Shown here: in pieces, positions 13,124 through 47,306 of the stretch
Position numbering within the stretch: position 1 is the first letter of the stretch
How the letters are laid out: the number at the start of each line of letters is the position of its first letter
Origin: Promicromonospora citrea
GTDB lineage: Bacteria > Actinomycetota > Actinomycetes > Actinomycetales > Cellulomonadaceae
Assembly (NCBI RefSeq): GCF_013004695.1
Contig: NZ_JABEMG010000020.1
Coordinates: 1-48,043, forward strand
Reading direction: 5' to 3'
Length of the DNA stretch: 48,043 nucleotides
Translations under genes and position numbers: made by a program
The notes under the pieces: model-generated
What the model saw: only the letters and a program-made list of their open reading frames with translations
Databases searched by the model: none
Told to the model about the DNA's origin: nothing

Positions 13124-13139
13124 CCGCCGCGCAGCCCGC

Positions 13140-13397: not shown

Positions 13398-13500
13398 CGA
13401 GTGCAGAGTGTGCGCCGGCTCGGGCCCGCCCCGGCCGTCGAGCGCAGAGTTTGGTCCGGCTGGAGCCCGCCGACGCGTCACGAACTCTGCACTCGACGGG
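13398..13500. repeat. 41-bp-period repeat array B ending in an inverted copy
   Basis: Unit starts are at 13398 and 13439 (the latter diverged as CGAGCGCAGAGT), then the same terminal block as array A and an inverted ACTCTGCACTCG at 13484-13495. It looks like a second copy of the whole two-unit-plus-inverse structure. Confidence 0.8.
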
Positions 13501-30770: not shown

Positions 30771-30866
30771 CGAGGTAGTCACTTGGCGAGGTAGTCAGTT
30801 GGCGAGGTAGTCACGTGGCGAGGTAGTCACGTGGCGAGGTAGTCACGCGGCGAGGTAGTCACGCGG
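30771..30866. repeat. 16-bp tandem array 1, six forward copies
   Basis: Copies start at 30771, 30787, 30803, 30819, 30835 and 30851, exactly 16 bp apart. The first ten bases CGAGGTAGTC are invariant, positions 11-14 vary (ACTT, AGTT, ACGT, ACGT, ACGC, ACGC), and every copy ends GG. The array lies between the ytfQ promoter and the GOLPH3-domain gene. The remainder of the 362-bp gap 30590-30951 holds the ytfQ promoter and leader. Confidence 0.9.
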
Positions 30867-30951
30867 CCGGGCCGGATCATCCCGGCGGCGGATGTCGCGA
30901 GCGACCATCGATGGTCTGCTGGAGGCACGACCACGTGCCACGGGAGGAACC

Positions 30952-31629
30952 GTGCAGCTCAGCCTCGCCGAGGAGTACCTGCTCCTCGCCCTCGACGACG
31001 CCTCTGGCCGCCCCCTGCTCAGCACGCAGTACCTCCAGCTCGGGCTGGCGGGGGCCGCCGCGGCCGACCTCGCGCTGCAGGGCGTGCTGGTCGTGTCGGA
31101 CGGCGCGGACGGCGGCCGCAAGGGCCGGTTCCGGTCGACCGGCCGGGCCGCGCCGTCCGACTCCGTGCTCCGCGAGGTGCTGGCCACGACCGAGGGCCGC
31201 AAGCCGCAGGACGCCGTCGGGAAGGCCGGGCAGGGCGCGACCGGCAGGCGTGTGCGCGAGACCCTGCTGGACCGGCTGGCCGCCGGCGGGGTGCTGCGCG
31301 CCGAGCAGGCGAAGATCCTCGGTCTGTTCCCGACGACCAGGTGGCCCGCACACGACCCGGCGCCGGAGGCCGCCGTCCGCGCACGGCTGCTCGACGCGCT
31401 CACCGGGCGCGCGACGCCGGACGAGCGGACCGCCGCGCTGGTCTCGCTGCTGCTGGCGACCGACCTGGTCCGCAAGGTCTACCCGGACGAGGACCGCAGG
31501 GCGCTGCGGCGCCGCGCCAAGGAGATCGCCGACTCGCAGTGGGCGGGCGCCGCCGTCAAGAAGGCGGTCGACTCCCTGGCGGCGGCCACGACGGCGGTCC
31601 TGGTCGCCACGACCTCGGCCACGAACTGA
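30952..31629 (+). CDS. GOLPH3/VPS74 (GPP34) domain protein
   Basis: A 225-residue protein starting MQLSLAEEYLLLALDDASGR, the usual opening of the GPP34 domain, followed by DLALQGVL, a basic linker, and helical C-terminal repeats. In eukaryotes GOLPH3 binds PI4P and retains glycosyltransferases in the Golgi; bacterial members are common in actinomycetes but have no established role. I prefer the GTG at 30952 (GGGAGGA just upstream, and the start of homology) over an in-frame ATG at 30892. It is the only plus-strand gene in the sugar island and is bracketed by 16-bp repeat arrays. Confidence 0.85.
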   Translation: MQLSLAEEYLLLALDDASGRPLLSTQYLQLGLAGAAAADLALQGVLVVSDGADGGRKGRFRSTGRAAPSDSVLREVLATTEGRKPQDAVGKAGQGATGRRVRETLLDRLAAGGVLRAEQAKILGLFPTTRWPAHDPAPEAAVRARLLDALTGRATPDERTAALVSLLLATDLVRKVYPDEDRRALRRRAKEIADSQWAGAAVKKAVDSLAAATTAVLVATTSATN

Positions 31630-31637
31630 CCCTTTGT

Positions 31638-31739
31638 CGAGGTAGTCACAGGGCGAGGTAGTCACAGGGCGAGGTAGTCCGGCCTCGTTCGCCACGTGAC
31701 TACCTCGCCACATGACTACCTCGCCACATGACTACCTCG
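31638..31739. repeat. 16-bp array 2, three forward then three inverted copies
   Basis: Forward CGAGGTAGTC at 31638, 31654 and 31670; inverted GACTACCTCG at 31698, 31714 and 31730; all steps are 16 bp within each half. The two halves can pair as a segmented hairpin with 10-bp helices separated by 6-base internal loops. It fills the convergent gap between the GOLPH3-domain gene and araA, so it may terminate both. Confidence 0.9.
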
Positions 31740-31751
31740 GCAGGGGGCGGG

Positions 31752-33266
31752 TCAGAGGGGCTGCGACAGGCGGTAGTACGCCGCGTTGTGGCGCACCTGG
31801 TCCGCGAAGCCGCGGCGCGTGGTGTCCTCGTCGATGACCAGCAGCTCGGTGCGCGCGATGTTCGCGAACACCTCGAACGCCTCGAGACCCGCGGCGGTCG
31901 ACATGACCGTGTGGTGCGCGCCGCCCGCCGTCAGCCAGGACTCGGCCGAGACCTCGAACGAGGGCCGCGGCGCCCACACGGCCCGCGCCACGGGCAGGTT
32001 CGGCAGGTCGTGCGGCGGTGTGACGACGTCGACGACGTTCGCCGTGAGCCGGAACCGGTCGCGCATGTCGGCGAGCGAGACCACGACCGCCCCCTCGGCA
32101 GCGTCCGCCGAGAACACCATCCGGACCGGGTCCTCCTTGCCGCCGATGCCGAGCGGGTGGACCTCGATGCGCGGCGTCGACGTGGTGAGCGTCGGGCAGA
32201 TCTCGAGCATGTGCGCGCCGAGGATCAGCTCGCGGCCCGGCGTGAGGTCGTAGGTGTAGTCCTCCATCAGCGACGCGCCGCCCGGCAGGCCGAGCCCCAT
32301 GACCTTGGCCGCGCGCACGAGCACCGCCGTCTTCCAGTCGCCCTCGGCGCCGAACCCGTAGCCCTGCTCCATGAGGCGCTGGACCGCGAGGCCGGGGAGC
32401 TGGCGCAGCGCGCCGAGGTCCTCGAAGTTGGTCGTGAACGCCTTGGCGCCCACGGCCTCGAGGAAACCGCGCAGCGCGATCTCCTGCCGCGCGGCGTACC
32501 GGAGGGACTCGTGCCGCTCGGCGCCCGCACGGAGCTCGGGGACGACGTCGTAGCGCTCCTCGTACTCCGCCACGAGGGCGTCGACCGCGCTCTCCTCGAC
32601 CGCCTCGACGGCCGCGACCAGGTCGTTCACGCCGTAGGTGTTGACCGAGACGCCGAACCGCAGCTCGGCCTCGGTCTTGTCGCCCTCGGTGACGGCGACG
32701 TTGCGCATGTTGTCCCCGAACCGGACCAGGGTCAGCTCGTGCGTCGCGGCCCAGCCGGCGGCGCCACGCACCCACGTGCCCACGCGGCGCGTGACGGCCG
32801 GGTTGGACACGTGCCCCACCACCGTCGTCCGCGCGACACCCAGCCGCGTGGCCAGGTACGCGTACTCGCGGTCGCCGTGCGCGGCCTGGTTGAGGTTCAT
32901 GAAGTCCATGTCGATGCTGTCCCACGGCAGCTCGACGTTCGCCTGCGTGTGCAGGTGCAGCAGCGGCTTGCGCAGCGCGTCCAGGCCCGCGATCCACATC
33001 TTGGCCGGGCTGAAGGTGTGCATCCACGTGATCACACCCAGGACGCGGTCGTCGCCGTTGGCGTCGAGCATGGCCCGGCGGATCGCGGCGGAGTCCTTCA
33101 GCACGGGCTTCCACACCACGTTCACCGGCACGTCCGACGACGCGTCGAGCGCGCGGGCGACCTCCTGCGACTGCTCGGCGACCTGGGCCAGGGTCTCCTC
33201 GCCGTAGAGGTCCTGGCTGCCGGTGAGGAACCAGACCTCGCGGTCCGCGTACGGCTTGGTGCTCAT
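31752..33266 (-). CDS. araA: L-arabinose isomerase
   Basis: A 504-residue AraA that converts L-arabinose to L-ribulose with a Mn2+ centre. Recognisable parts are [17 protein letters not shown] at the N-terminus, [48 protein letters not shown], and [18 protein letters not shown], with metal-binding Glu and His in their usual places. Length is normal. ATG 33266 overlaps the araD stop codon by four bases (ATGA). It is the third gene of araB-araD-araA. Confidence 0.97.
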
Positions 33267-34000
33267 GCCTGTCCTTCCGTGGTGGCGGGCTGCTGCCCGT
33301 AGACGTTCTGGTAGCGGTCGTAGAGGGAGTCGATGTGCTGCTGCTCGATCGGCACCGGCTCGCCGAGCTGGCGGGAGACGTGCACCGTGCGCGCCACCTC
33401 CTCGACCATCGCGGCGGCCTTGACCGCCGCTCGCGCGTCCTTGCCGATCGTGAACGGGCCGTGGTTGCGCATGAGCACGGCCGGGCTGCGGTGCCCGCTC
33501 AGCGTCTCCACGATGCCGCGGCCGATCGAGTCGTCGCCGATGATCGCGAACGGCCCGACGGGCACGGGCCCGCCGAACTCGTCGGCCATCATCGTCAGCA
33601 CGCACGGGATCTCCTCGCCGCGCGCGGCCCACGCCGTCGCGTACGTGGAGTGGGTGTGCACGACGCCGCCCACCTCGGGCATGTGCCGGTACACGTAGGC
33701 GTGCGCCGCGGTGTCCGACGACGGCGCGCGGGTGCCGTCCACGAGCGTGCCGTCGAGGTCACAGACCACCATGTCGGCCGGGGTCAGGTCGTCGTAGGAG
33801 ACGCCGGACGGCTTGATGACGAAGAGGTCGGCGCTGCCGTCGGGCACGTCGGGGTTCGGCACGCGCTGCGACACGTTGCCGGCCGTCCACACCACCAGGC
33901 CCCAGCGGGGCAGCTCGGCGTGCAGGTCGCTCACGACGGCGCGGACCCGCGCCACCTCCTCCTGCACGGCCGCGGGGTAGTCGGTCAGGGTGGTGCTCAT
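33263..34000 (-). CDS. araD: L-ribulose-5-phosphate 4-epimerase
   Basis: A 245-residue class II aldolase-fold enzyme that converts L-ribulose 5-phosphate to D-xylulose 5-phosphate. The zinc ligands appear in [13 protein letters not shown] (two His) and late in [12 protein letters not shown] (His); TAGNVSQRV and [10 protein letters not shown] form the phosphate-binding region. Start ATG 34000 overlaps the araB stop by one base (TGATG). Length is typical for AraD. Confidence 0.95.
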
Positions 34001-35712
34001 CAGCTCTCCTGCGTCGTGGTTCGTGCGGTGGTCTCCCGCGGGGCGAGCGCCCCGACGGCGGCGCGCTCGACCGCCAGGCCGGCGTCGTAGCGCTCGAGGA
34101 ACGCGGCGTAGCCCGCCACGTCGGCCGGGTCCGGCTCGACGACGTCGAGCTCGGCGGAGGCGAACACCTCGGCGGCCAGCCAGGTGCCCAGGTCGGGGAC
34201 GTCGGCCCCGGCGGCGGCCGCCCGGTAGGCGGCCAGCACGGCGATGCCCCACGCGCCGCCCTCGCCCGCGGTCCGGCCGACGGCGACCGGCGCGCCGAGC
34301 GCCGCAGCGAGCAGCCGCTGGGCCACGCCCTCGGTCCGGAACATGCCGCCGTGCGCGAACATCGCGTCGAGGCCCACCTCCTCCCGCTCGAGCACCCGCA
34401 TGCCGAGGCTCAGGGTGCCGAACGCGCTGTAGACCTGGGTGCGCGCGAAGTTGGCGAGCGTGAGACGGCTGTCGGGCGTGCGGGTGAACAGCGGGCGCCC
34501 GGCCTCCAGGCCGGTGATCGGCTCGCCGGACAGGTAGTTGTAGGCGAGCAGGCCGCCGCCGTCGGCGTCGCCGTCCAGGGCCGACCGCAGGAAGGCCTCG
34601 AAGACGGTCTCCGGGTCGGCGGGCTGCCCGAGCGCGGCGGCGAGCTGGCCGAACAGGTCCGCCCACGCGGCGAGCTCGCTGGCCCCGTTGTTGCAGTGCA
34701 CCATGGCCACGAGGTCGCCGGCCGGGGTGGTGACGAGGTCGATCTCCTCGTGCACCCGCTCCAGCGGCCGCTCGAGCACGACCATGGCGAAGATGCTCGT
34801 GCCGGCACTCACGTTGCCCGTGCGCGGCGCCACCGAGTTCGTCGCGACCATCCCCGTGCCCGCGTCGCCCTCGGGCGGGCACAGCGGGATGCCCGGCCGG
34901 AGCGTCCCGCTCGGGTCCAGCAGCGCGGCGCCCTCGGGCGTGAGCGTCCCGGCGTCGGCGCCCGCGGGCAGGACGGCGGGCAGCAGGTCGGCCAGCGGCG
35001 GCACGCGGCCGGCGGCACGCTCGTCGAACGCGGCGAGCATCGCGCGGTCGTAGCCGGCGGTGGCGACGTCGACGGGGAACATGCCCGACGCGTCGCCCAC
35101 GCCGAGCACGTGGCGGCCGGTGAGCCGCCGGTGCACGTAGCCCGCGAGGGTCGTGAGGTGGCGCACCCGGGCGACGTGCGGCTCGTCGTCGAGCACGGCC
35201 TGGTAGAGGTGCGCGACCGACCAGCGCAGCGGGATGTTGTGGCCGAGCAGCTCCGTCAGCTCGCGGGCGGCACGCTCGGTGCTCGTGTTGCGCCACGTGC
35301 GGAAGGGGACGAGCAGCTCACCGGCCTCGTCGAACGCGAGGTAGCCGTGCATCATCGCCGAGACGCCGAGGGCGCCGACGGTGGTAGGCCGCACGCCGTA
35401 CCGGGCCTCGACGTCGGCGAGGAGCGCGGCGACCGCCTCCTGCAGACCCGTCCAGACCGCCTCGAGCGAGTAGGTCCACACGCCGTCGACGAGCTGGTTC
35501 TCCCAGTCGTGGCTGCCGCTCGCGAGCGGCACGTTGTCGGGGCCCACGAGGCACGCCTTGATCCGGGTCGAGCCGAGCTCGATGCCGAGGGCGGTGCGGC
35601 CCTGCTCGATCGCCGCGGCGATGTCCAGGTCCGCCTCGTGCGGGGTGGTCGCCTGTGGTGTGGTGGTCTGCGGCGTGGTCGCCCGTGCGCCGCCGTCCTG
35701 CCGCTCCGCCAT
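34000..35712 (-). CDS. araB: L-ribulokinase (FGGY family)
   Basis: A 570-residue FGGY-family sugar kinase. N-terminal [16 protein letters not shown] is the phosphate-1 motif, [11 protein letters not shown] and TWRNTSTE follow, then [29 protein letters not shown] and the late GHGG-type [10 protein letters not shown] and [10 protein letters not shown]. This is the variant found with araA/araD in clostridia and actinomycetes and often misnamed xylulokinase; position next to araD and araA supports L-ribulokinase. I choose ATG 35712 (GGAG nine bases upstream) rather than an in-frame start at 35781 that lies close to the operator. Confidence 0.9.
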
Positions 35713-35786
35713 CGTCGGCCGCTCCGTCCTGCCCGCGCCGTCACGGGCTGTCGTTCCCAAGGTTCTCTGCTCACGATCCACTGGAT

Positions 35787-35800
35787 GTTAGCGCTCACAC
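35787..35800. promoter_or_regulatory. LacI-family operator at the araB promoter
   Basis: TGTTAGCGCTCACA, identical to the ytfQ operator, within the minus-strand block TGTCAG-N6/7-TGTGAGCGCTAACATCCAG. TAACAT may be the -10. Identity to the ytfQ site over the operator and flanks indicates co-regulation of arabinose uptake and catabolism. Confidence 0.7.
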
Positions 35801-35845
35801 GATACCTGACACCTGCCTGCCCCTCGCTGCCGGCGACCGTTCCCG

Positions 35846-35903
35846 CCGAGAACGACCTGCGGGACGGGTTCCGGTCGGATCCCGTCCCGCAGGTCGTTCT
35901 CGG
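35846..35903. repeat. Long palindromic element P3 (23-bp perfect arms)
   Basis: Arms 35846-35868 and 35881-35903 are perfectly complementary; after one mismatch an inner TCCG/CGGA pair closes the loop. The outer word CGAGAACGACCT is shared with P1 and P2. It begins 15 bp beyond the stop codon of the CUT1 binding protein and lies just upstream of the araB promoter, so it would isolate araB from read-through. Confidence 0.85.
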
Positions 35904-35917
35904 GGGTGTGCCGCGGC

Positions 35918-37258
35918 TCAGCCGTTGACCGTGAAGCCCTGGTCCGTGCCGTAGGCCACGTTCTCCTCCTGCCACGCCGCCAGCCCGTCGAGCAGCGACG
36001 ACCGGTCGAGCCACGCCTGGCCCACCGTGTCGGCGAAGACGCTGTTCGCGTACGACTGCCACGGCAGGTACTGCCAGCCCTCGTTCACGTCCGCGGCGCC
36101 GCCGGCCAGCACCTCGTTGATCTTCTGGCCGCCGAAGTACTCCGACTCGTAGCCCAGGAACTCCTCCGACCCCAGGTGCTCGACGGTCGCGGGGAACCCT
36201 CCGGTCTCCATGAAGGCCTGGATGGACTCGTCGCTCGCGTTGAGCCACTTGAGGAAGCCCGCAGCGAGCAGCTTGTTCTCCGCCGCCCCCGGGATCGACT
36301 CGGTGCTGCCGCCGTTCTCGGCGTTGGTCGGCGTGCCGTCGTAGGTCGGCATCGGAGCCACGCGCCACTTGCCTGCACCGTCCGGTACGCCGTCCTCGAG
36401 GATGCCCGGCATCCAGGCGCCGAGCGCGACCGACGCGATGGTGCCGTCGTTCAGCGCCGCGTACCACTCGTCGCTCCAGCCCGGGAGCCGGCAGAGCAGC
36501 TCGTCGTCGATGAGCGGCTGGTACATCTCGGCGAACCGGGTGGTGCCCTCGTCGGCCAGGTCGATGGTCACGGACTCGCCGTCGTTCTGGAACGGGGTAC
36601 CGCCCGCCTGCCAGATCATGCTCGTCGTGAACCCCGGGTCGCCCGAGTCGTTCGCGAGGCACCGGTCCGGGTCGTCCTGCTTGACGGCCCGCGCGACCTC
36701 GATGTATTCGTCCCACGTGGTCGGCACCTCCACGCCGACGTCGTCGAACACCTCCTGGTTGTAGAAGAAGGCCATCGGCCCGGAGTCCTGCGGCAGGCCC
36801 CAGATGCCGCCGTTCTGGGAGACCGCGCCCCAGGTCGACGGCGTGTACAGGCTCTCGAGCTCGTCGAAGCCGTACTGCGTGAGGTCCACGAGCTGGCCGG
36901 GGAGCTGGAACTGCGGGATCGACTGGTACTCGATCTGCACGACGTCGGGCACGCCCTTGCCCGCCGCGATCGCGTTCTGCAGCTTGGTGTTGGACTCGCC
37001 CGCGCCGACCGTGTCCACGAGCGTCACGTCGACGTCCGGGTACGCCTTCTCGAACTCCTCGATCTGCTTCTCGGCCTGCGGGGTCCACGTCCAGTAGGTG
37101 AGGCTGCCGCCCTCCTGGAGCGCGGCCTCGATCTCGTCCGCGGTGGCGCCCTCGCCGCCACCGCCGTCACCGCCGCCGCCCGAGCAGGCGGTCAGGGAGA
37201 CGGCGAGCAGCGCGGTCAGGGCGCCGGCCGCGACACGTCCTGTGCGGGTGATGGTCAT
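35918..37258 (-). CDS. CUT1 extracellular solute-binding lipoprotein
   Basis: A 446-residue family 1 solute-binding protein. Lipobox LTAC (Cys at about 25) is followed by a Gly-rich linker; the mature protein starts SLTYWTWTPQAEKQIEEFEKAYPDVDV and contains VPDVVQIEYQSIPQF, GPMAFFYNQEVFDDVGV and FLKWLNASDESIQAFME as in oligosaccharide-binding proteins. It is the last gene of a permease-permease-binding protein operon. Given araBDA next door, arabino-oligosaccharides (compare AraN of Bacillus) are a reasonable guess. Confidence 0.92.
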   Translation of the reverse strand: MTITRTGRVAAGALTALLAVSLTACSGGGGDGGGGEGATADEIEAALQEGGSLTYWTWTPQAEKQIEEFEKAYPDVDVTLVDTVGAGESNTKLQNAIAAGKGVPDVVQIEYQSIPQFQLPGQLVDLTQYGFDELESLYTPSTWGAVSQNGGIWGLPQDSGPMAFFYNQEVFDDVGVEVPTTWDEYIEVARAVKQDDPDRCLANDSGDPGFTTSMIWQAGGTPFQNDGESVTIDLADEGTTRFAEMYQPLIDDELLCRLPGWSDEWYAALNDGTIASVALGAWMPGILEDGVPDGAGKWRVAPMPTYDGTPTNAENGGSTESIPGAAENKLLAAGFLKWLNASDESIQAFMETGGFPATVEHLGSEEFLGYESEYFGGQKINEVLAGGAADVNEGWQYLPWQSYANSVFADTVGQAWLDRSSLLDGLAAWQEENVAYGTDQGFTVNG

Positions 37259-37305
37259 GGTCTTCCCTCTTCCACGTCGTCGTAGCTCGGGTCCTCGGGG
37301 TCGGG

Positions 37306-38169
37306 TCAGGCCTTCACGCCGCCGGCGCTCAGGCCGGACTGCCAGTAGCGCTGCAGCAGCAGGAAGGCGATCACGATCGGCACGATCGTGAGGAACGAGC
37401 CGGTGATGACCAGGTTGAACACCGGCTGGGCGCCGATGCCGGACGCGTCGGCGAGCCACTGGTACAGGCCGAGCGTCAGCGGGTACAGGTCCGGGTCGTT
37501 GAGCATGATCAGGGGCAGGAAGTAGTTGTTCCAGGTGGCCACGATGGCGAACAGCGCCACCGTGACGATGCCGGGTGCGAGCAGCCGCAGCGAGATCGTG
37601 AAGAACGTGCGCCACTCGCCCGAGCCGTCCACCCGGGCCGCCTCGAGGATCTCCGTCGGCACGGCCTCGGCGGAGAACACCCACATGAGGTAGAGCCCGA
37701 ACGGCGAGACCAGCGAGGGCAGGATGATCGCCCACATCGTGTTCGTCAGGCCGACCTGGCTGAACAGCAGGAACGTCGGCACCGCGAGCGCTGTACCCGG
37801 CACGGCGATGGCGCCGAGGATCGTCGCGAACACCGCGCCGCGCCCGCGGAACCGGTACTTCGCCAGGCCGTAGCCCGCCGCCGTCGCCAGGAGCGTCGCA
37901 CCGCCCGCGCCGACCACCACGTAGACGATCGTGTTGAGGAACCAGCGCACGAAGATGCCGTCGTCGTGCGTGATCACCTGCTGCAGGTTGTCGACGAGCG
38001 CGAACGGGCCGGAGAACCACAGGCCGAACGAGCTGAGCAGCTCGCTCTGCGTCTTGGTGATGCTGAAGAACATCCAGGCCAGCGGCAGCAGCGAGTAGAC
38101 GACGAGGAAGCCCAGCAGCGCCGTGAGCGTGACCGACTTGCGCGGCCGCAGGTACGAGTAGCCCGCCAT
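37306..38169 (-). CDS. CUT1 sugar permease (MalG-like)
   Basis: A 287-residue binding-protein-dependent permease with six transmembrane helices. The EAA loop is EILEAARVDGSGEWRTFFTISLRLLAPG, which docks to the ATPase, and the C-terminus ends QRYWQSGLSAGGVKA as in MalG-type permeases (AraQ-like). ATG 38169 overlaps the stop of the other permease by one base. No ATPase gene accompanies it. Confidence 0.93.
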   Translation of the reverse strand: MAGYSYLRPRKSVTLTALLGFLVVYSLLPLAWMFFSITKTQSELLSSFGLWFSGPFALVDNLQQVITHDDGIFVRWFLNTIVYVVVGAGGATLLATAAGYGLAKYRFRGRGAVFATILGAIAVPGTALAVPTFLLFSQVGLTNTMWAIILPSLVSPFGLYLMWVFSAEAVPTEILEAARVDGSGEWRTFFTISLRLLAPGIVTVALFAIVATWNNYFLPLIMLNDPDLYPLTLGLYQWLADASGIGAQPVFNLVITGSFLTIVPIVIAFLLLQRYWQSGLSAGGVKA

Positions 38170-39056: not shown

Positions 39057-39072
39057 GCGCGCACCCCTTCCC

Positions 39073-39090
39073 CCGGACGACGTCGTCCGG
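39073..39090. promoter_or_regulatory. 18-bp perfect palindrome in the CUT1 leader
   Basis: CCGGACGACGTCGTCCGG is fully self-complementary and lies 17 bp before the GTG. A second dyad CCGCGCAG-CA-CTGCGCGG is at 39102-39119. Both are in the predicted 5' untranslated region. Confidence 0.45.
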
Positions 39091-39126
39091 ACTCACAGGC
39101 ACCGCGCAGCACTGCGCGGCGACAGA

Positions 39127-39142
39127 ATGTGAACGTGAACAT
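39127..39142. promoter_or_regulatory. LacI-type operator of the CUT1 operon
   Basis: ATGTGAACGTGAACAT is an imperfect palindrome (ATGT/ACAT ends around a central ACGT). On the minus strand TTGACA (plus 39180-39185) and CAGAGT 18 bp later form a promoter, placing this dyad just downstream of the expected transcription start, where repressor binding would block elongation. Remaining sequence up to 39289 shows nothing recognisable. Confidence 0.6.
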
Positions 39143-39289
39143 CCTGTGCGCGGCGACTCTGCCATCGCACCCGCCGACGTGTCAACGATCTCGTCGGCAT
39201 GCGGGAAAGCGCGATCCCGGGGGTTCGCCTGCGGCCTTGCCGCCGTGTTCGGGCGGAGCAGGAGGGCCGGCAGGTGGCGCAGCGGCGGG

Positions 39290-40330
39290 TCAGGCGCGCG
39301 GGGCTCCTGCGCTGCGGCGGACCACCAGCTCCGGAGCGATCAGCTCGGCCGTGGGCCCGTCACCGTCGACGGCGGCCAGCAGCAGCGCGACGCTGCGCCG
39401 GCCGAGGTCACCGAACGGCTGCCGCACGGTGGTCAGCGGCGGGATGAAGTGTCCCGACCCCTCGATGTCGTCGAACCCCACCACGGAGACGTCGTCCGGC
39501 ACGGACAGACCGGACTCCCACAGCGCGCGCAACAGGCCGAGCGCGAGCTGGTCGTTGGCGGTGAACACCGCCGTCGGCCCCTCGCCCGCCGCGACGCGCC
39601 GCGCGAGGTCGAGGCCCACCGCGTAGCCGCTGTCGGCCGTCCAGCTCGCGACCACCGGGTCCGGCACGGCCAGGCCGTGCTCGGCGAGCACGGCGCGCCA
39701 CGCCTCCTTGCGCTCGACGGCGTCCAGCCAGTCCGGCGGGCCCGCGACATGCAGGATCTGCCGGTGCCCCAGCCCGATCAGGTGCTCGACGGCGAGGCGC
39801 GCCCCCGCGCGCTGGTCCACCGAGAGCGGGATCACCGGCACGTCCGGCCGCAGGTCCCGCGCGGCGATGAGGACGACGGGCACGGGCGCCCGGAACGACT
39901 CCACGGCGTCGGCCACGTCGGTGTGCGGCGCGATCACGACGATGCCCTCGACCGCCTGGTCCATGAAGTGCTCGAGCGCGCCGTGCAGCGTCTCGGCGTC
40001 GTAGCGGCGCAAGGTCGCCACGCTCACGTACCAGCCCTGCTCGCGCGCGGCCTCCTCGACCGCGATCAGCGTGCTCGACGGCCCGAACAGTGGCGACCCC
40101 GTCGTCACGACCCCGACCGTCGCGGTCCGCGCGGTGACGAGCGCCCGCGCCGCGCTGTTGCGGCGGTAACCGAGCTGCGCGATCGCCTCCAGCACCTTCT
40201 CCCGGGTGGCCGGGCGTACGCTGCGGTGCCCGTTGAGCACCCGGGAGACGGTCTGGTGGGACACGCCCGCGAGCGCCGCGACGTCGGCCATGGCCGGCGG
40301 CCGCGTCGTCGCGGGTCGGGAGACGGTCAC
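39290..40330 (-). CDS. LacI-family transcriptional regulator of the CUT1 operon
   Basis: A 346-residue LacI regulator: AMADVAALAGVSHQTVSRVLNGHRSV is the helix-turn-helix, ATREKVLEAIAQLGY the hinge; the ligand core includes VEGIVVIAPHTDV, VFTANDQLALGLL and VVGFDDIEGSGHFIPPLTTVRQP. The HQTVSRVLNG recognition helix differs from the first LacI gene, fitting a different operator. Start GTG 40330 lies seven bases after the proC stop; an ATG at 40291 with little lost from the N-terminus is an alternative. It probably represses the CUT1 operon 233 bp downstream. Confidence 0.92.
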   Translation of the reverse strand: MTVSRPATTRPPAMADVAALAGVSHQTVSRVLNGHRSVRPATREKVLEAIAQLGYRRNSAARALVTARTATVGVVTTGSPLFGPSSTLIAVEEAAREQGWYVSVATLRRYDAETLHGALEHFMDQAVEGIVVIAPHTDVADAVESFRAPVPVVLIAARDLRPDVPVIPLSVDQRAGARLAVEHLIGLGHRQILHVAGPPDWLDAVERKEAWRAVLAEHGLAVPDPVVASWTADSGYAVGLDLARRVAAGEGPTAVFTANDQLALGLLRALWESGLSVPDDVSVVGFDDIEGSGHFIPPLTTVRQPFGDLGRRSVALLLAAVDGDGPTAELIAPELVVRRSAGAPRA

Positions 40331-40337
40331 CGGGGGA

Positions 40338-41141
40338 TCATCCCGCCAGCTCGCGGGCGCGGTCACGCGCGGCGGCCGCTGCGGCGACGAACGCGGCCCG
40401 CACCGCGCGGTCGTCCAGCTCACGCAGGCCCGCCGCCGTCGTGCCGCCGGGCGAGGTGACCTTCTCGCGCAGGATCACGGGGTGCTCGCCCGACTCGTCG
40501 AGCAGGCGCGAGGCGCCGAGCAGCGTCTGCGTCGCCAGGCGGCGTGCGACGTCGCGGGTCAGGCCGAGCAGCACACCGGCCTCGGCGAGCGCGTCGGCCA
40601 CGTGGAACACGTACGCGGGGCCCGAGCCGGAGATCGCGGTCACCGCGTCGAGGTCCTTCTCGGCCGCGCGCACGACGGCGCCCGTGCCGGCGAGCAGGTG
40701 CTCGACCGCCTCGAGGTGGGCGTCGGTGGCGGAGGCACCGGGGGCGATCGCGGTGATGCCCGCGCCGATCGCCGCGGGCGTGTTGGGCACCGTCCGCACC
40801 ACGGGGAGTCCCGCGGGCAACCGCTCCTCGTAGAAGGTGGTGGGCAGGCCTGCCGCGACGGTGACGACGACGGCCGACGGGTCGAGCGCGGGCGCGACCT
40901 CCTCGAGCAGCGCACCGACGTCCTTCGGTTTGACGCCGACGAGGACGAGGCCCGCCCCGCGCACGGCCGCCGCGTTGTCGCTGGTCGTGGCCACCTGATA
41001 GGTCTCACGCAGGTGCTGGGCCTTCGCCTCGGTCCGCACGGTGGCCACGACGTCGGACGCCGCCCACCCGCCGGAGAGCGCGCCCGCGAGGACCGCCTCG
41101 CCCATGTTCCCGGCGCCGAGCACCGCAAGTCGCTGGTTCAC
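40338..41141 (-). CDS. proC: Pyrroline-5-carboxylate reductase
   Basis: A 267-residue enzyme making L-proline from 1-pyrroline-5-carboxylate with NAD(P)H. The N-terminal Rossmann motif is LAVLGAGNMGEAVL, and the C-terminal dimerisation domain has VVRTVPNTPAAIGAG, AISGSGPAYVFH and EKVTSPGGTTAAGL, all diagnostic for ProC. Start is GTG 41141; GAGAAT six bases upstream may be the -10 of a leaderless transcript, or GGGAG may be a distant ribosome binding site. The lacI-type gene follows almost immediately. Confidence 0.95.
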   Translation of the reverse strand: MNQRLAVLGAGNMGEAVLAGALSGGWAASDVVATVRTEAKAQHLRETYQVATTSDNAAAVRGAGLVLVGVKPKDVGALLEEVAPALDPSAVVVTVAAGLPTTFYEERLPAGLPVVRTVPNTPAAIGAGITAIAPGASATDAHLEAVEHLLAGTGAVVRAAEKDLDAVTAISGSGPAYVFHVADALAEAGVLLGLTRDVARRLATQTLLGASRLLDESGEHPVILREKVTSPGGTTAAGLRELDDRAVRAAFVAAAAAARDRARELAG

Positions 41142-41165
41142 GCGGTCATTCTCTCCCGCGGCCGG

Positions 41166-41819
41166 TCAGAGCGGGAACGCGGCGTAGAAGTCCTCCATGA
41201 GGTCCGCGGGGCCGGTGGCCTGCAGCACGGCCGTGCCGTTCTGCCAGACCACGACCGCCGTGCCGGCCTTCGCCGGGACGATCGCGTACCGGCCGACCAC
41301 GGTGCTGCCCACCTTGACGTCACCCTCGTGCTCGGGCTCGCCCGCCGCCTTCGTCCAGGCGGCCGCCGCCGTGGCCGCCTCGTCGTCCGTGGCCCACTGG
41401 CCGGCGACGACCTCGACCTCGTCCGGGCCGCCGTCGGCGTACCGGGCCGTCCACGCCTCGAGGGCGCCCTGCTCCTTCGGCTCCTCGGCCTCCTCGAGCT
41501 CGCCCAGCGCGTACCGGAGCACCGCGGACGGCAGCGCCTGCTGGAAGTCCGTCTCGTCGCGGGTGCGCTCGATGGCCTTGACCGTCGGTGTCGGCGCGGG
41601 CGCCGTGACCGTCACGGTGGGGACCGGCTGCGGCGTGCCCTCGGCACGCCAGAACCCCGGCCAGACGAGGCCCGCCGCGAGCACGACGGCCAGCACCAGG
41701 ACGAGGAGCCCCAGCAGGACGACGAGCCGACGGCGGCGGTACACCGCGCGGGACGGCTTCCGTGGCGCGACCGATGCGGTGGCACCCGTCCGCGGCGCTC
41801 TCACACGCTGGTCCGACAT
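41166..41819 (-). CDS. Membrane-anchored hypothetical protein
   Basis: A 217-residue protein with a basic N-terminus (about 1-32), one transmembrane helix (LVVLLGLLVLVLAVVLAAGLVW), a Pro/Thr-rich linker and an extracytoplasmic alpha/beta domain ending TGPADLMEDFYAAFPL. I do not recognise the domain. AGGGGAG precedes the ATG by six bases. It is upstream of proC in the same direction and divergent from radA. Confidence 0.7.
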   Translation of the reverse strand: MSDQRVRAPRTGATASVAPRKPSRAVYRRRRLVVLLGLLVLVLAVVLAAGLVWPGFWRAEGTPQPVPTVTVTAPAPTPTVKAIERTRDETDFQQALPSAVLRYALGELEEAEEPKEQGALEAWTARYADGGPDEVEVVAGQWATDDEAATAAAAWTKAAGEPEHEGDVKVGSTVVGRYAIVPAKAGTAVVVWQNGTAVLQATGPADLMEDFYAAFPL

Positions 41820-41991
41820 GTCTGGCTCCCCTGCACTCCTGCCGCTGATCTCCCGCCGCCGGGTACGACGCACCGGCTTCTGGTCGGCACCTTATGTGCC
41901 ACCACCGACATCCGCGCGGAGGCACGCGGCCGGGGGGCGCCGGAGCGTGCGTCGGTGCTCGTGCCGGTGCTCGTGTGTCAGTGGCGGCACG

Positions 41992-41997
41992 TACGGT
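41992..41997 (+). promoter_or_regulatory. Putative -10 box, leaderless radA
   Basis: TACGGT is followed by six bases and the GTG at 42004. The 184-bp gap to the divergent gene also holds a small GGCAC/GTGCC hairpin at 41886-41900. Confidence 0.5.
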
Positions 41998-42003
41998 GCG
42001 ACC

Positions 42004-43458
42004 GTGACCTCATCGACCTCGAAGCGGGCGCGGCCCGCCTACCGCTGCAGCGAGTGCGGCTGGACCACCGTCAAGTGGGTAGGCCGCTGCGGGGAGTGCC
42101 AGGCCTGGGGCACGGTGAGCGAGGAGGGCGCCCCGACCGCGGGGCCGCGCACCGCCGCCGTGTCGCCCGCCCGCGAGCCCGCACGCCCGATCGCCGACAT
42201 CGACGTGGAGTCCGCGCGGGCCCACCCGACCGGCGTCGGCGAGCTCGACCGCGTGCTCGGCGGGGGTCTGGTGCCCGGCGCCGTGGTCCTGCTCGCGGGC
42301 GAGCCGGGCGTGGGCAAGTCGACCCTCCTGCTGGCGGTCGCGAGCAACGTGGCCGACGGCGCGCTCGGCCCCGACGGCGTCGACTCACCCCGCACCGTGC
42401 TGTACGTGACCGGCGAGGAGTCGGCGGGCCAGGTGCGGCTGCGCGCCGAGCGCATCGGGGCGCTGTCCCCCACGCTGCTGCTGGCGGCGGAGACCGACCT
42501 CGGCACGGTGCTCGGACACCTCGAGGCCACCCAGCCGGACATGCTCATCGTCGACTCGGTGCAGACCGTCGCGTCCGCGCAGGTCGAGGGCGCCCCCGGC
42601 GGGGTGTCGCAGGTGCGCGAGGTGGCCGCCTCCCTCATCGCCGTCGCGAAGGAGCGCCAGATCCCGACGATCCTGGTGGGCCACGTGACCAAGGACGGCT
42701 CGGTGGCGGGCCCGCGCACGCTCGAGCACCTGGTCGACGTGGTCTGCCAGTTCGAGGGCGACCGGCACTCCCGGCTGCGCATGATCCGGGCGGTCAAGAA
42801 CCGGTACGGCCCCACGGACGAGGTCGGCTGCTTCGACCTCTCGGAGGACGGCATCGTCGGTCTGCCCGACCCCTCCGGCCTGTTCCTGTCGCACGCGGGC
42901 TCGGGCGTCGCGGGGTCGTGCATCACGGTCACCCTGGAGGGGCGGCGGCCGCTCGCCGTGGAGGTGCAGGGGCTCGTGGCACCGAGCCCGCTGAACAACC
43001 CCCGGCGGGCGACCAGCGGCGTGGACTCCAGCCGGCTCGCGATGATCCTCGCGGTGCTGCACCGGCACGGTGGCGTGCGCCTCGCCGACCAGGACGTCTA
43101 CGCCTCGACCGTGGGCGGCGCCCGGATCACCGAGCCCGCGTCCGACCTCGCCGCCGCGCTCGCCCTGGTCTCGGCGCGGACCGGCAGGCCGCTGCCCGCC
43201 GCGACGGTCGCGATCGGCGAGGTCGGCCTCGCCGGGGACCTGCGCCCCGTGACCGGCCTGGACCGCCGGCTCGGCGAGGCGGCACGCCTCGGGTTCGAGC
43301 ACGCCGTCGTCCCGGAGGGCACGGGCGTCAAGGCCCCGGACGGGCTGCGCCTGGTCGAGGCGGCCCACATCCGCGACGCCGTGCAGTGGGCGCAGTCGGC
43401 GGCCCAGGGCGGGCGCCCGGACGCGCGCGGAGGCGACGGGAGGATGGACGGTGAGTGA
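42004..43458 (+). CDS. radA: DNA repair protein RadA (Sms)
   Basis: A 484-residue RadA, a RecA-like branch-migration helicase. Zinc finger Cys15/18/29/32 (CSECG ... CGECQ), Walker A GEPGVGKST near 99-107, the RadA-specific KNRYG motif at about 265-269, and a Lon-protease-like C-terminal domain without protease residues. Start GTG 42004 follows a TACGGT -10 by six bases; the frame upstream is a shadow. disA begins 53 bp downstream; RadA and DisA are known to interact and regulate c-di-AMP synthesis in Bacillus and mycobacteria. Confidence 0.95.
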   Translation: MTSSTSKRARPAYRCSECGWTTVKWVGRCGECQAWGTVSEEGAPTAGPRTAAVSPAREPARPIADIDVESARAHPTGVGELDRVLGGGLVPGAVVLLAGEPGVGKSTLLLAVASNVADGALGPDGVDSPRTVLYVTGEESAGQVRLRAERIGALSPTLLLAAETDLGTVLGHLEATQPDMLIVDSVQTVASAQVEGAPGGVSQVREVAASLIAVAKERQIPTILVGHVTKDGSVAGPRTLEHLVDVVCQFEGDRHSRLRMIRAVKNRYGPTDEVGCFDLSEDGIVGLPDPSGLFLSHAGSGVAGSCITVTLEGRRPLAVEVQGLVAPSPLNNPRRATSGVDSSRLAMILAVLHRHGGVRLADQDVYASTVGGARITEPASDLAAALALVSARTGRPLPAATVAIGEVGLAGDLRPVTGLDRRLGEAARLGFEHAVVPEGTGVKAPDGLRLVEAAHIRDAVQWAQSAAQGGRPDARGGDGRMDGE

Positions 43459-43499
43459 CCGGTGCGTGAAACGAACCGCTTGTGACCCAGGGCACAGCG

Positions 43500-43505
43500 T
43501 AGGAT
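43500..43505 (+). promoter_or_regulatory. Putative -10 box, leaderless disA
   Basis: TAGGAT is followed by six bases and the GTG at 43512, giving disA its own promoter within the 53-bp gap after radA. Confidence 0.5.
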
Positions 43506-43511
43506 TTCTTC

Positions 43512-44594
43512 GTGGCCACGACCTCCTCGCACCCTGAAGAGCTGCTCCGGGAGACCCTGGCCGCCGTGGCGCCGGGAACCGAGCTGCGTGACGGCCTCGA
43601 GCGCATCCTGCGCGGTCGGACCGGCGCGCTCATCGTGCTCGGCCTGGACCAGACCGTCGAGCAGATCTGCTCCGGTGGCTTCGCTCTCGACGTCGGTTTC
43701 TCGGCGACGCGCCTGCGCGAGCTGTCCAAGATGGACGGCGCCGTGGTGCTCGACCGGGGCGCCACCCGGATCCGGAAGGCCGCGGTGCAGCTGCTGCCCG
43801 ACCCGACCATCGAGACGACCGAGTCCGGGACGCGGCACCGGACGGCGGAGCGCGTCGCGAAGCAGACCGGCTTCCCGGTCATCTCGGTGAGCCAGTCGAT
43901 GCGGATCGTCGCGCTCTACGTGGGCGGCCAGCGCCACGTGCTCGAGGACTCCGACACCATCCTCGGCCGCGCGAACCAGGCCCTCGCGACGCTCGAGCGC
44001 TACCGCGCCCGCCTCGACGAGGTGTCGGGCACGCTGTCGGCCCTGGAGATCGAGGACCTGGTCACGGTGCGCGACGTGTGCTCCGTGGTGCAGCGCCTCG
44101 AGATGGTCCGCCGCATCTCCGACGAGATCGCCGGCTACGTCATCGAGCTCGGCGTGGACGGCCGGCTGCTGGCGCTGCAGCTCGACGAGCTGATCGGCGA
44201 CGTCGGCTCCGACCGCGAGTTCGTGATCCGGGACTACGTGCTCGGCCGCAAGGACCGCACGCTCGCCGACGTGCAGGCCGAGCTCGCCGCACTCACCTCG
44301 CAGCAGCTCCTCGACCTGAGCCAGATCGGCCGCATCCTCGACCTGCCCGGCGGCGGGGACGCGCTCGACGCCGCCGTCGCCCCGCACGGCTACCGCCTCC
44401 TGTCCAAGGTGCCGCGCCTGCCGAACAGCACGATAGAGCGCCTCGTCGGCCACTTCAGCAGCCTGCAGAAGCTCCTCGCCGCGAGCGTGGACGACCTCAT
44501 GTCGGTCGACGGCGTCGGCGAGCAGCGCGCCCGGACCATCCGGGAGGGCCTCTCGCGCCTCGCGGAGTCCAGCATCCTCGAGCGTTACGTCTGA
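43512..44594 (+). CDS. disA: DNA integrity scanning diadenylate cyclase DisA
   Basis: A 360-residue diadenylate cyclase making c-di-AMP from two ATP. The DAC domain contains DGA (75-77) and RHRTAER (108-114), the catalytic motifs; a helical linker follows, then a C-terminal helix-hairpin-helix domain ([22 protein letters not shown]) that binds branched DNA. Length is normal. GTG start with a -10 six bases upstream. c-di-AMP commonly controls potassium uptake through RCK_C domains, as in the Trk-type regulator at 13905. Confidence 0.96.
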
Positions 44595-44611
44595 CCGACC
44601 TTGCACAGGAA

Positions 44612-44642
44612 GGCGGGCACCCCGCCGCCGGGCGTGCCTGCC
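44612..44642. terminator. Terminator between disA and lysR-type gene
   Basis: GGCGGGCAC (44612-44620) pairs with GTGCCTGCC (44634-44642), one G-U pair, in the convergent gap. Confidence 0.55.
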
Positions 44643-44658
44643 GAACCCGGCCGGTCAA

Positions 44659-45588
44659 TCAGTGCGTGACCCATCCGGGAACCCATACCTCGTCGTCGAC
44701 CTGCGGCCCTGAGGCTCGTAGGTAGTCGCGCAGGTCGGAGAGCACGGGATGCTGGTGCCCGGCCCGCGTGAGCAGCACGTGCGGATAGACAGGTGTCGGC
44801 TCGTGCAGGGGGATACGCCGCAGGTCGTAGCTGTCGGGCCACAGGTAGCGGTCGTCGGTGCCGACCAGGGTCGCCAGGGTGTCCGACCCGGCCAGCGCGT
44901 CCATGAGGGCCTCGTCGCCGAAGTGGGGGCCGATCGCGTCGATGCTCAGCCCGAAGTCCTGCGAGAGCGACCGGTAGAACAGCTCCCACTCCGTGCCCGG
45001 CCTGATGCCGGGGATCCAGATGCGGTGACCGGCGAGATCAGCAGGCCGGACCTGCTCTCTTCCGGCCAACGGGTGTGCCGGGCCGACCAGCAGCTGCAGC
45101 GGCATGTCCAGGAGCCGCTCGGCTCTGATCCCCGAAGGGACCTGCTCCGCGGGCAGCGCCCGGAAGGAGGCGTCGAGGTCTCCGTCGAGCACGGCCCGGG
45201 CCACCTGACCGGCGTCCTGCTCACCGAGCGCAACTGCGTCCAGGGCCGTGTCAGGGCGCGAGCGGTAGAAGCGGTGGACGGCCTGGGCCGGCACGACGCG
45301 TCGGTTGAGGACGTCGATCCGCAGGGGACGACTGCCGGGACGCACCGCCTGTGCTGCCTGGTCGAGGGCTGCCAGGACCTTCCTGGCGTGCGGGAGGAAG
45401 ACGTGCCCGTCCAGGCTCAGCCGTGACCCGCGCGAGGTGCGCACGAGAAGCGATACACCGAGGCTCTTCTCCAGGCCCACGATCCTCTTGGAGACCGCCT
45501 GCTGACTGATCCCGAGCTCGTCGGCCGCAGCCTGGAACTGACCGGCCTCGACGACGGCCACGAAGGTGCGTACCGCTTCGACGTCCAC
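44659..45588 (-). CDS. LysR-family transcriptional regulator
   Basis: A 309-residue LysR protein: helix-turn-helix GQFQAAADELGISQQAVSKRIVGLEKSLGVSLLVRTSRG (about 16-50) and a PBP-like effector domain (PLRIDVLNRRVVPAQAVHRFYR ... LLVGPAHPLAGR). Start GTG 45588; TAGGGT precedes it by six bases, so its mRNA is probably leaderless. It is divergent from the acetyltransferase, with a clear inverted repeat between, and likely regulates it. Confidence 0.92.
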   Translation of the reverse strand: MDVEAVRTFVAVVEAGQFQAAADELGISQQAVSKRIVGLEKSLGVSLLVRTSRGSRLSLDGHVFLPHARKVLAALDQAAQAVRPGSRPLRIDVLNRRVVPAQAVHRFYRSRPDTALDAVALGEQDAGQVARAVLDGDLDASFRALPAEQVPSGIRAERLLDMPLQLLVGPAHPLAGREQVRPADLAGHRIWIPGIRPGTEWELFYRSLSQDFGLSIDAIGPHFGDEALMDALAGSDTLATLVGTDDRYLWPDSYDLRRIPLHEPTPVYPHVLLTRAGHQHPVLSDLRDYLRASGPQVDDEVWVPGWVTH

Positions 45589-45594
45589 ACCATG

Positions 45595-45600
45595 ACCCTA
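45595..45600 (-). promoter_or_regulatory. Putative -10 box, leaderless lysR-type gene
   Basis: On the minus strand TAGGGT, then six bases, then the GTG at 45588. The adjacent inverted repeat overlaps the expected -35 side. Confidence 0.5.
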
Positions 45601-45604
45601 CTGT

Positions 45605-45621
45605 CACAACCACTGGTTGTG
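45605..45621. promoter_or_regulatory. LysR-type operator
   Basis: CACAACC-ACT-GGTTGTG is a perfect 7-bp inverted repeat with a 3-bp spacer, consistent with a LysR box, located in the 89-bp gap between the divergent genes. Confidence 0.65.
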
Positions 45622-45677
45622 CATAGGCCTCGCCCGGTTGTTTGATCGGGCGTCCGCGACACTGCTGAGATGGCGCC

Positions 45678-46229
45678 ATGTCCACCCGCACTCAGCAGGT
45701 CATGCCTGTCCAGTCCACTGATTTCACGCGGTACGCGGAACGAATCGCCGAGGTCACTGAGGCGACCTCCCGGCTGAACGTCCTCCCGTTCAGCGAGACG
45801 GAGCAGCGCGCGAAACTACTCGCGGTTGTGTTCGGCGGTCCGTTGCCGGAGTCGGTGACGATCTACCCGCCCTTCTACACGGAGCACGGGCTTGCCACGA
45901 CGTTCGGGAAGAACGTCTTCGTCAACCAGGGATGCACGTTCATGGACGGCGGTGGCATCACCATCGGGGACGACGTCATGATCGCTCCGCGCGTCAGTCT
46001 CGTCACCGGCGGGCACCCGCTGCCGCTGGACGAGCGGCGCGAGTACACCGTCAGCGCCCCGATCGTGATCGAGGACGACGTCTGGATCGGCACGGCCGCC
46101 GTCGTCACCCAGGGCGTGACCATCGGCTCGGGAGCGGTCGTCGCCGCCGGCGCGGTCGTCACCCGTGACGTGCCCGCACGCACGCTGGTCGCGGGCGTTC
46201 CCGCCCGGGTGGTCAAGACCATCGGCTGA
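45678..46229 (+). CDS. Sugar O-acetyltransferase (maltose/galactoside acetyltransferase-like)
   Basis: A 183-residue left-handed beta-helix (hexapeptide repeat) acetyltransferase of the Maa/LacA/NodL type. [53 protein letters not shown] includes the catalytic His of GGHP; the later [30 protein letters not shown] and AGVPARVV are hexapeptide repeats. It should move acetyl from acetyl-CoA to a sugar hydroxyl in the cytoplasm. Divergent from its probable LysR regulator. Confidence 0.9.
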
Positions 46230-46301
46230 TGCCGCCCGGTCTTCGGCACCTTGTCCGCTGCGGCACGCGGACGACATGGGAGCGTGGGCGCGCCCCGAGC
46301 C

Positions 46302-47033
46302 TCAGCCCTGCTCCCCGCCCTTGTCCTTCACCCCCGCCGACGGCGAACCGCTCGGCGACGCCGACCCGGACGCCGACCCGCTCGGAGACGGGGAGCCGGT
46401 GGGCTCGGGCACGGTGTAGGTGAGCCGCACGACGTCGCTCGTCGCCCCCTCGACCCCCGCCAGCGTCACCTGCGCGGTGTACTCACCCGCGACCAGCTTC
46501 GGCTGCCCGGGCTCGCACCCCGGCACGGACCGCGCGTCCGACCAGCGCACCTCCGTCGTGTCGACGTCGTCCGGGCCGAGCAGCAGCAGGCGTTCCTCGT
46601 CGGCATCGGCGCAGTCAGCCGACGACCACACCCGCTCGGCGCTCTCCTCCCCCACCTCGCCGCGGTACACGGTCACCGCGAGGTCCCGTCGCGGGGCGTC
46701 GACGAGGCACTGCGTGTCGGCGTCGTTGGCGACCGACACGGTGAACCGGACGGGCACGCCCGGTGTGACGGCGGTGCGATCGGCGGCGAGCCCGACATCG
46801 AGGTCGTCTGCCGTGCACGGTGCCGCCGCGGCGTTGGGGTCGACGGGCGCGGGCGGGGCCATCTTGTCCGACGCGATGGACGGTTCGGCTCGCGGCCAGG
46901 TCACGGCGACCCCCGCACCGCCGAGGGCGAGCACGACGAGCACCGCGATCACGCGACCGCGGCGCGGACCCCGCACGTCGGGCTCGCGGCCCGGGCCCGT
47001 GGCCCGCTCGGCCCGCTCCGGTGCATCCACCAC
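46302..47033 (-). CDS. Membrane-anchored hypothetical protein with Ser/Pro-rich tail
   Basis: A 243-residue protein (262 if the in-frame GTG at 47090 is used). A basic N-terminus is followed by one transmembrane helix (VIAVLVVLALGGAGVAVTW), then a beta-rich extracytoplasmic domain with four cysteines (PCTADDL, TQCLVD, ADCADADE, GCEPGQ), and a low-complexity Ser/Pro/Gly tail. This looks like an Ig-like or DUF4232-like secreted domain, but I do not recognise a function. I prefer GTG 47033 because AGGGGG lies eight bases upstream. Confidence 0.6.
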   Translation of the reverse strand: MVDAPERAERATGPGREPDVRGPRRGRVIAVLVVLALGGAGVAVTWPRAEPSIASDKMAPPAPVDPNAAAAPCTADDLDVGLAADRTAVTPGVPVRFTVSVANDADTQCLVDAPRRDLAVTVYRGEVGEESAERVWSSADCADADEERLLLLGPDDVDTTEVRWSDARSVPGCEPGQPKLVAGEYTAQVTLAGVEGATSDVVRLTYTVPEPTGSPSPSGSASGSASPSGSPSAGVKDKGGEQG

Positions 47034-47188
47034 CCGCTGAACCCCCTGCCGAGCCACGGCTCGATCGATCTGACTGACGGCGGACGACACCGTGTGACGT
47101 GCGGTGACGGCGTCCGCATCCCCAAAAATACGACGTCCGGCGCCCCTCCGGCCGCAGCCGCGCCGCCGCGGAGGTCACGCGCCCACGG

Positions 47189-47306
47189 CGAGGTAGTCAC
47201 GTGGCGAGGTAGTCATGAGGCGAAGTAGTCATGAGGCGAAGTAGTCACCCGGCGTGCGCCAGATGACTACCTCGCCAAGTGACTACCTCGCCAAGTGACT
47301 ACCTCG
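47189..47306. repeat. 16-bp array 3, four forward then three inverted copies
   Basis: Forward units start at 47189, 47205, 47221 and 47237 (the last two read CGAAGTAGTC); inverted GACTACCTCG at 47265, 47281 and 47297. Every step within a half is 16 bp. Here the array lies between divergent genes, directly upstream of mutY, so a terminator role alone does not explain it. Between 47034 and 47188 I see no other feature. Confidence 0.9.

Follow-up and report, generated by a model that had tools for sequence, protein, structure and literature searches.

The stretch of DNA analysed here, which we call the window, is 48,043 nucleotides long and corresponds to contig C113 of a Promicromonospora citrea genome (G000; 4.96 Mb, 290 contigs). 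It hosts three intergenic arrays of a short unit repeated every 16 bp, and these arrays are a real, fast-evolving gene-end element of Promicromonospora. The arrays and their neighbours are listed below; gene calls, here and throughout, come from our own codon-usage caller.

30771..30866, plus strand: array 1, six forward 16-bp units in a single orientation, divergent neighbours
31638..31739, no strand: array 2, three forward and three inverted units, between the convergent GPP34 and araA genes
47189..47306, no strand: array 3, four forward units followed by three inverted ones, upstream of the MutY-like gene
29585..30589, minus strand: periplasmic sugar-binding protein gene (PF13407)
30952..31629, plus strand: GPP34-domain gene between arrays 1 and 2 (PF05719)
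31752..33266, minus strand: araA (L-arabinose isomerase; AraA domains), convergent with the GPP34 gene
46302..46952, minus strand: open reading frame without a Pfam match, left of array 3 (gene call)
47348..48043, plus strand: HhH-GPD / MutY-like gene (domain match), runs past the contig end

An earlier note on this DNA had reported three arrays with these positions, unit counts and period, all of which hold on the window sequence; the drift that it described in bases 11-14 of the unit is also seen in the window arrays. Tandem Repeats Finder likewise calls the arrays as 16-bp repeats. With at most one mismatch, the core word CGAGGTAGTC has 35 matches in the window, compared with a mean of 3.98 and a largest value of 13 in 100 shuffles, and every one of its 17 exact matches lies within an array.

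Array 1 lies 91 nt upstream of the start of the GPP34 gene and has no strong fold (DNA z-score -0.05). The edges of array 2, taken at 12-mer unit boundaries, are 6-10 nt from both stop codons, and it folds strongly both as DNA (z -9.97) and as RNA (z -10.0 and -12.1, one per strand). Array 3 (DNA z -12.98) hosts CGAAGTAGTC in two of its four forward units and is flanked by the minus-strand open reading frame without a Pfam match and the plus-strand HhH-GPD gene. Scans of the window for Rfam families, at gathering scores, and for tRNAs gave no matches. Elsewhere in the window, 41-bp tandem repeats are found at 13136-13254 and 13388-13471, in about three and about two copies.

Architecture and position of the arrays

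A search of G000 for pairs of units at 16-bp spacing, with at most two mismatches, gave 297 pairs; the reversed control gave 0. The earlier note had proposed looking through the genome and its relatives, and had taken a lack of further copies as grounds for abandoning its interpretation. Many copies turned up, and since they are abundant in both, no such lack is seen. An assembly artefact is ruled out, because other assemblies contain arrays too, some of them at orthologous positions. Neighbourhoods fetched around the listed sites contained 88 clusters, which reduce to 62 arrays when 24 lone units and two two-unit clusters inside genes (L058:3047 and L071:5882) are excluded. The resulting catalogue of at least 62 arrays and 372 units is a lower bound, since some arrays are missing from it.

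The unit consists of CGARRTAG, a dialect part (mostly TCA in G000, AAC in the related genome G194), three variable bases and RG. In G000 the core reads CGAGGTAGTC; its chief variant, CGAAGTAGTC, accounts for 22 of 372 units, and TAG is present in 364 of the 372. Spacing between units on the same strand is exactly 16 bp in 261 of 265 cases. The 4-nt linkers are drawn from 33 words, the commonest being ACGT (68/261), with ACCT at 40/261; there are no unique spacers, and the earlier judgement that this is not CRISPR stands. Of 159 pairs of adjacent linkers within an arm, 44 are identical, compared with a fraction of 0.11 for random pairs, which is a mark of local duplication. Arms host between one and seven units, most often three, with three or more in 68 of the 88 arms and fewer in the other 20.

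The order of the arms is close to invariant. Forward-then-inverted arrays number 44, and 18 have one orientation, although three of the latter (L044, L051 and L053) are near contig ends and may be truncated. Where exact inverted pairs lie no more than 34 bp from each other, the forward-inverted order occurs 57 times and the opposite order 0 times, where several of the 57 can stem from one array. The sole case of the other order is L074:2977, where a weak inverted unit precedes the forward ones. Six one-orientation arrays, at five loci, have another array less than 3 kb away, and here forward units are always on the left and inverted units always on the right. At L105 1767-3086, a 370-aa open reading frame without a Pfam match has a forward array on one side and an inverted one on the other.

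The arrays of G000 are found mainly at gene 3' ends. Convergent junctions host 32 of the 62, minus-minus junctions 13, plus-plus junctions five and divergent junctions six, and a further six have an uncalled neighbour. A gene 3' end lies within 40 nt of 50 arrays, 26 of which have two. The stop codon is within the array at 23 of 76 nearby gene ends, and in 17 of these it is the TAG of the unit itself; stop codons outside the array precede it by at most 39 nt. The window is atypical for the genome, as two of its three arrays have no gene 3' end beside them. From the variety of positions in the window the earlier note had argued that a simple terminator does not explain all arrays, a reasonable point as regards arrays at divergent junctions and those with one orientation, although the mix in the window does not represent the genome at large.

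The same preference is seen in relatives. In G194, the closest relative examined (AraA 98% identical; sister to G000 with 100/100 support in the araA tree), contig C2 was taken whole and has nine of its 10 arrays at convergent junctions, a type that makes up 72 of its 426 junctions. Over all G194 sequence examined, which adds stretches of contig C1 selected for containing arrays, the figures are 14 of 16 arrays and 118 of 680 junctions; a gene 3' end lies within 40 nt of all 16 arrays, and 13 have two. In G187, where every stretch was selected for containing arrays, 13 of 17 arrays are convergent, compared with 42 of 204 junctions. Several convergent junctions of G194 C2 also host a second hairpin repeat family, of TCGAGACCGAGGTTGC-like type, beside 16-bp arrays (e.g. 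at 103073, 325947 and 333892; L126-L145).

The unit itself is not palindromic, and a palindrome forms only between opposite arms. Taking both strands, the median RNA fold z-score is -12.1 for the 44 forward-inverted arrays and -0.9 for the 18 one-orientation arrays. For the forward-inverted arrays, the fold scores bear out the earlier suggestion of an element capable of segmented hairpins or cruciforms.

Does pairing extend to the linkers? Triplets at mirror-image positions agree in 15 of 73 cases in G000, compared with 9.7 when linkers are shuffled across arrays (62 of 2000 shuffles reach the observed value), in 12 of 29 in G194 (4.6; 0 of 2000) and in 11 of 28 in G187 (5.2; 16 of 2000). Non-mirror triplets in the same comparison agree in 27 of 178, 20 of 70 and 12 of 50 cases, respectively, and part of the mirror-linker excess reflects shared descent within arrays. 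Flanks outside the arrays of G194 show some excess of pairing (77 of 112 positions paired, compared with 68.5; 17 of 2000 shuffles reach it). Full complementarity of the linkers between arms was not found.

Dialects and shared junctions in the genus

In all the searches made, the array family is restricted to one genus. An exact first-dialect pair, sought in 84,980 species, returned 26 stretches, all from Promicromonospora as judged by their titles (two strains of P. iranensis, P. panici and P. soli), in a collection that may omit the window's own genome or near ones. Three copies of CGARRTAG with a 16-bp period occur in 10 of the 13 genomes of the genus and are absent from the family's other 24 genera (221 genomes). 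Among 396 genomes of the order the generic pattern is found in G000 and G531 only. The latter, from another family of the order, has a single array at a gene end (L166, about 10003-10042) with three CGAAGTAG units at 16-bp spacing and other linkers, perhaps by chance or as a distant parallel.

Two dialects are found within the genus. The arrays of G194 have the same architecture and a different unit, CGARRTAGAAC, and its core letters 4-5 vary too (AG, GA, GG). Pairs of the first dialect number 269 in G000, 69 in G184, 14 in G185, six in G187, four each in G188 and G189, one in G195 and 0 in the other six genomes; these counts are the more conservative because more letters were fixed in that search than in the search for the second dialect. 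Second-dialect pairs number 363 in G187, 197 in G194, 133 in G188, 83 in G192, 53 in G193, 44 in G189, 15 in G184, four in G185 and three in G186, with 0 in G000, G190, G191 and G195. The first dialect dominates at two separate places of the one-gene araA tree (G000; G184 with G185), so that on this tree dominance has changed at least twice. Linker words common to G000, G194 and G187 include CGTGG, TGTGG, TCTGG, CCTGG, CAGGG, TGCAG and CGCAG.

When the 62 arrays of G000 were compared with 793 kb of G194, 14 arrays matched on both flanks, four on one and the rest on none. Seven of the 14 comparable junctions host an array in G194 as well, in the other dialect (L054:2981, L059:2961, L060:3004, L066:2943, L105:1767, L105:3027 and L112:2991), and the remaining seven, which include those of all three window arrays, lack one there. 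For the sequence examined, each of the two genomes keeps to a single dialect, although they have places in common. The arrays at L105:1767 and L105:3027, which flank a single gene, have one orientation in both genomes, with differing dialects. Four G000 junctions could also be matched in P. iranensis, which has first-dialect arrays at L066:15047, L074:2977 and L054:2981 and none at L054:4604. The array at L054:2981 adjoins the right-hand gene in P. iranensis (L032), so that across three species this junction hosts the first dialect (G000), the second (G194) and the first again.

Orthologues of araA are present in all 13 genomes, and the araA/GPP34 junction, which is the site of array 2 in the window, is a short sequence without an array in G194. 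In other species it has unrelated hairpins (L115-L118, L123), of the GGTCGAGC..TGTCGAGACC types in G186, G192 and G193 and of the GAGTGCGGGC..GCCCGCACTC types in G190 and G195. In this genus, different hairpin families appear to stand in for one another at gene ends.

Proposed gene-end stem-loops and the alternatives

The observations to be explained are the sequence, spacing, order, location and folding potential of the arrays, their genus restriction, the two dialects and the shared positions with different dialects. The reading that we favour, at a probability of roughly 0.55, is that the arrays form a genus-specific family of two-way stem-loops at gene 3' ends that resembles the repetitive extragenic palindromes (REPs), is built of tandem non-palindromic units and is homogenised in each genome. 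With a forward run followed by an inverted run, a transcript from either side would fold to one long stem, made of helices of about 12 bp parted by short variable stretches and starting a few bases past the stop codon. Termination or 3'-end protection is the role that we infer from the sequences: the stem would limit read-through between neighbours, above all between convergent genes, and/or shield the mRNA 3' end against exonuclease attack, in both directions and without a U tract. Copying or recombination between arrays would homogenise the units within a genome, in such a way that dialects shift and places stay. The earlier note's interpretation, of an iterated protein-binding or structural element, is supported in part.

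The closest known elements are those of the REP, BIME and REPIN kinds, above all the GTAG-tagged REPs. In the cited accounts REPs are extragenic, have many copies and species-specific types, and form large stem-loops from inverted arrangements (PMC3733652, PMC3116915, PMC12306157); in two species most convergent REPs are no more than 20 bp from each of the two 3' ends, and REP ends often supply a TAG stop (PMC3733652). Our arrays have in common with REPs where they sit, how many copies there are, ends that can supply a TAG, and the inverted arrangement that lets them pair (PMC3733652). Their copies are many, dispersed and extragenic (297 pairs, or 62 arrays once in-gene clusters are dropped), and located at gene 3' ends, often convergent ones. 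There are four differences. A REP is a palindromic unit of 20-40 bp, whereas the Promicromonospora unit is 16 bp, non-palindromic and arranged head to tail. REPs have an unpaired GTAG or CGTC tag at the terminus, whereas GTAG is internal here and the second dialect often has GATAG. The RAYT gene is absent from 13 of 13 genomes of the genus. Finally, unpaired REP singlets are less conserved than doublets (REPINs), whereas copies in one orientation here are no less conserved than paired ones. Because the arrays depart from REPs on all four counts, we regard them as REP-like in their working and do not class them as REPs.

A second parallel comes from transcription. Of 535 highly structured transcript ends in Streptomyces clavuligerus, 353 have no U tract, and 55 bidirectional ends are reported (PMC8269248), so a stem without a U tract is plausible as a gene end in this phylum. 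The arrays resemble these U-less (I-shaped) or bidirectional terminators of high-GC actinobacteria in having a strong GC-rich stem after the gene and no U tract. Among our arrays, a stable GC-rich stem just past the stop codon is a property of the forward-inverted ones only. U-less terminators as described there (PMC8269248) are individual hairpins set by transcript ends, whereas the arrays, as putative terminators, are a repeat family with a fixed core and a 16-bp period.

Several results weigh against the stem-loop reading. Twelve of the 62 G000 arrays, including two from the window, lie more than 40 nt from any gene 3' end, and the one-orientation arrays (18/62) fold no better than shuffles. 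No U tract was found, with a mean of 2.0 T in the 15 nt past the array edge and a maximum of 5 (88 edges). Pairing of linkers is far from complete, as mirror identity in G000 is 16 of 74 compared with 27 of 183 for non-mirror linkers. Innermost linkers pair at 83 of 116 positions, compared with 77.8 in shuffles, which is not significant, and flanks outside the G000 arrays show no excess (228 of 352 paired, compared with 223.1; 428 of 2000 shuffles reach it). Pairing is no more than one of the constraints. A pure hairpin, moreover, requires neither a core conserved across species nor a fixed arm order. Conservation is also equal with and without pairing, as exact CGAGGTAGTC is found in 59 of 70 one-orientation units and in 249 of 302 units of paired arrays, which leaves room for a factor that reads the sequence.

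Could the arrays then be oriented, iterated targets of a factor that binds DNA or RNA in a sequence-specific manner and serves as a road-block, insulator or terminator at gene ends, with a change of dialect reflecting a change of factor? We consider this possible, although we would not expect it. It would suit the CGARRTAG core retained across dialects, the fixed 16-bp spacing, the invariant arm order (57 to 0) and the equally conserved one-orientation arrays, and it does not require complete linker pairing. It would also suit L105:1767 and L105:3027, which are one-orientation in G194 as well, both in the other dialect. No factor has been identified, though none was sought by a direct method. 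The modest mirror-linker excess in three species is unexpected from binding sites alone, and the second dialect is rarely the only thing to change, core letters 4-5 varying as well in G194. In a more specific form, which we put forward only tentatively, a putative Promicromonospora factor would read CGARRTAG plus the three-base dialect at 16-bp spacing and mark or block the ends of transcription units, and factor and sites would change together.

We think it unlikely that a selfish, non-autonomous repeat is behind the arrays, one that some enzyme spreads and that is merely tolerated at gene ends, mostly convergent ones, where harm is least. Copy number that ranges from 0 to several hundred pairs between species would fit such a repeat, as would the missing array in the sister at 7 of 14 comparable junctions and the unrelated hairpins at the araA/GPP34 junction in other species. 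REP-like elements are usually tied to RAYT transposases. No match to the RAYT / Y1 transposase model (PF01797) was found in the 13 genomes of the genus, compared with matches in five of 14 control genomes; other transposases were not tested. As none is found here, either a different means of copying or selection by a factor must be invoked. No clean insertion footprints came to light, and the shared junctions with altered units (7/14) argue for maintenance in place.

The status of SbcCD bears on homogenisation and on the selfish-repeat reading. SbcD (TIGR00619) does not exceed the curated cut-off in any of the 13 genomes, two of which have weak partial matches, whereas 13 of 14 control genomes match and eight exceed the cut-off. 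This weakens SbcCD cutting of palindromes as the means of homogenisation. The loss of SbcCD might let long palindromes persist, and in this way may make a selfish repeat more tolerable.

Two further proposals fare worse. It is very improbable that the arrays are translation-stop cassettes, in which three units at 16-bp spacing place a TAG in every frame. The frequency of TAG (364/372 units), its use as the stop codon of 17 genes and the 68 of 88 arms with three units or more would fit, yet the other core letters are equally well kept, TAG-less variants such as CGAGACAG recur in relatives, 20 of the 88 arms are shorter than three units, and the inverted arm and the hairpin order are left unexplained.

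DNA uptake sequences with species dialects are hardly credible here, despite the shared core, dialects and inverted pairs tied to gene ends that Neisseriaceae also have in the account cited, since known ones number thousands per genome, commonly within genes too (PMC3630211), whereas our units are confined to tandem 16-bp arrays with no dispersed single copies above background. Lone exact CGAGGTAGTC occurs 19.0 times per Mb in G000 and 15.1 times per Mb in G194, whose arrays use another dialect, and lone second-dialect words have one copy in 793 kb of G194. Ten lone CGAGGTAGTC copies are listed in 369 kb (two belonging to one array), compared with 0.6 expected from base composition, and this excess vanishes with G194 as the control. 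Uptake sequences were rejected on these lone-copy counts.

We did not find the 16-bp Promicromonospora arrays in print, in open-access literature screened by title. The STAR-type repeats of Staphylococcus are similar in being intergenic arrays of a short conserved unit in variable copy number, and differ in that they are not known to have a forward-then-inverted order and in their longer recurring spacers.

The arrays illustrate cleanly how short dispersed DNA in bacteria can evolve in concert, because sister species share array junctions while the unit differs genome-wide (269 and 0 pairs of the two dialects in one, 0 and 197 in the other). They also provide a concrete set of sites for studying how high-GC actinobacteria part convergent genes without U-tract terminators. 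If the arrays prove to be sites for a binding factor, they would represent a factor-dependent, dialect-evolving punctuation of gene ends, unlike the system of REP and RAYT, in which sister species would have rewritten their whole set of sites and yet kept many of its places.

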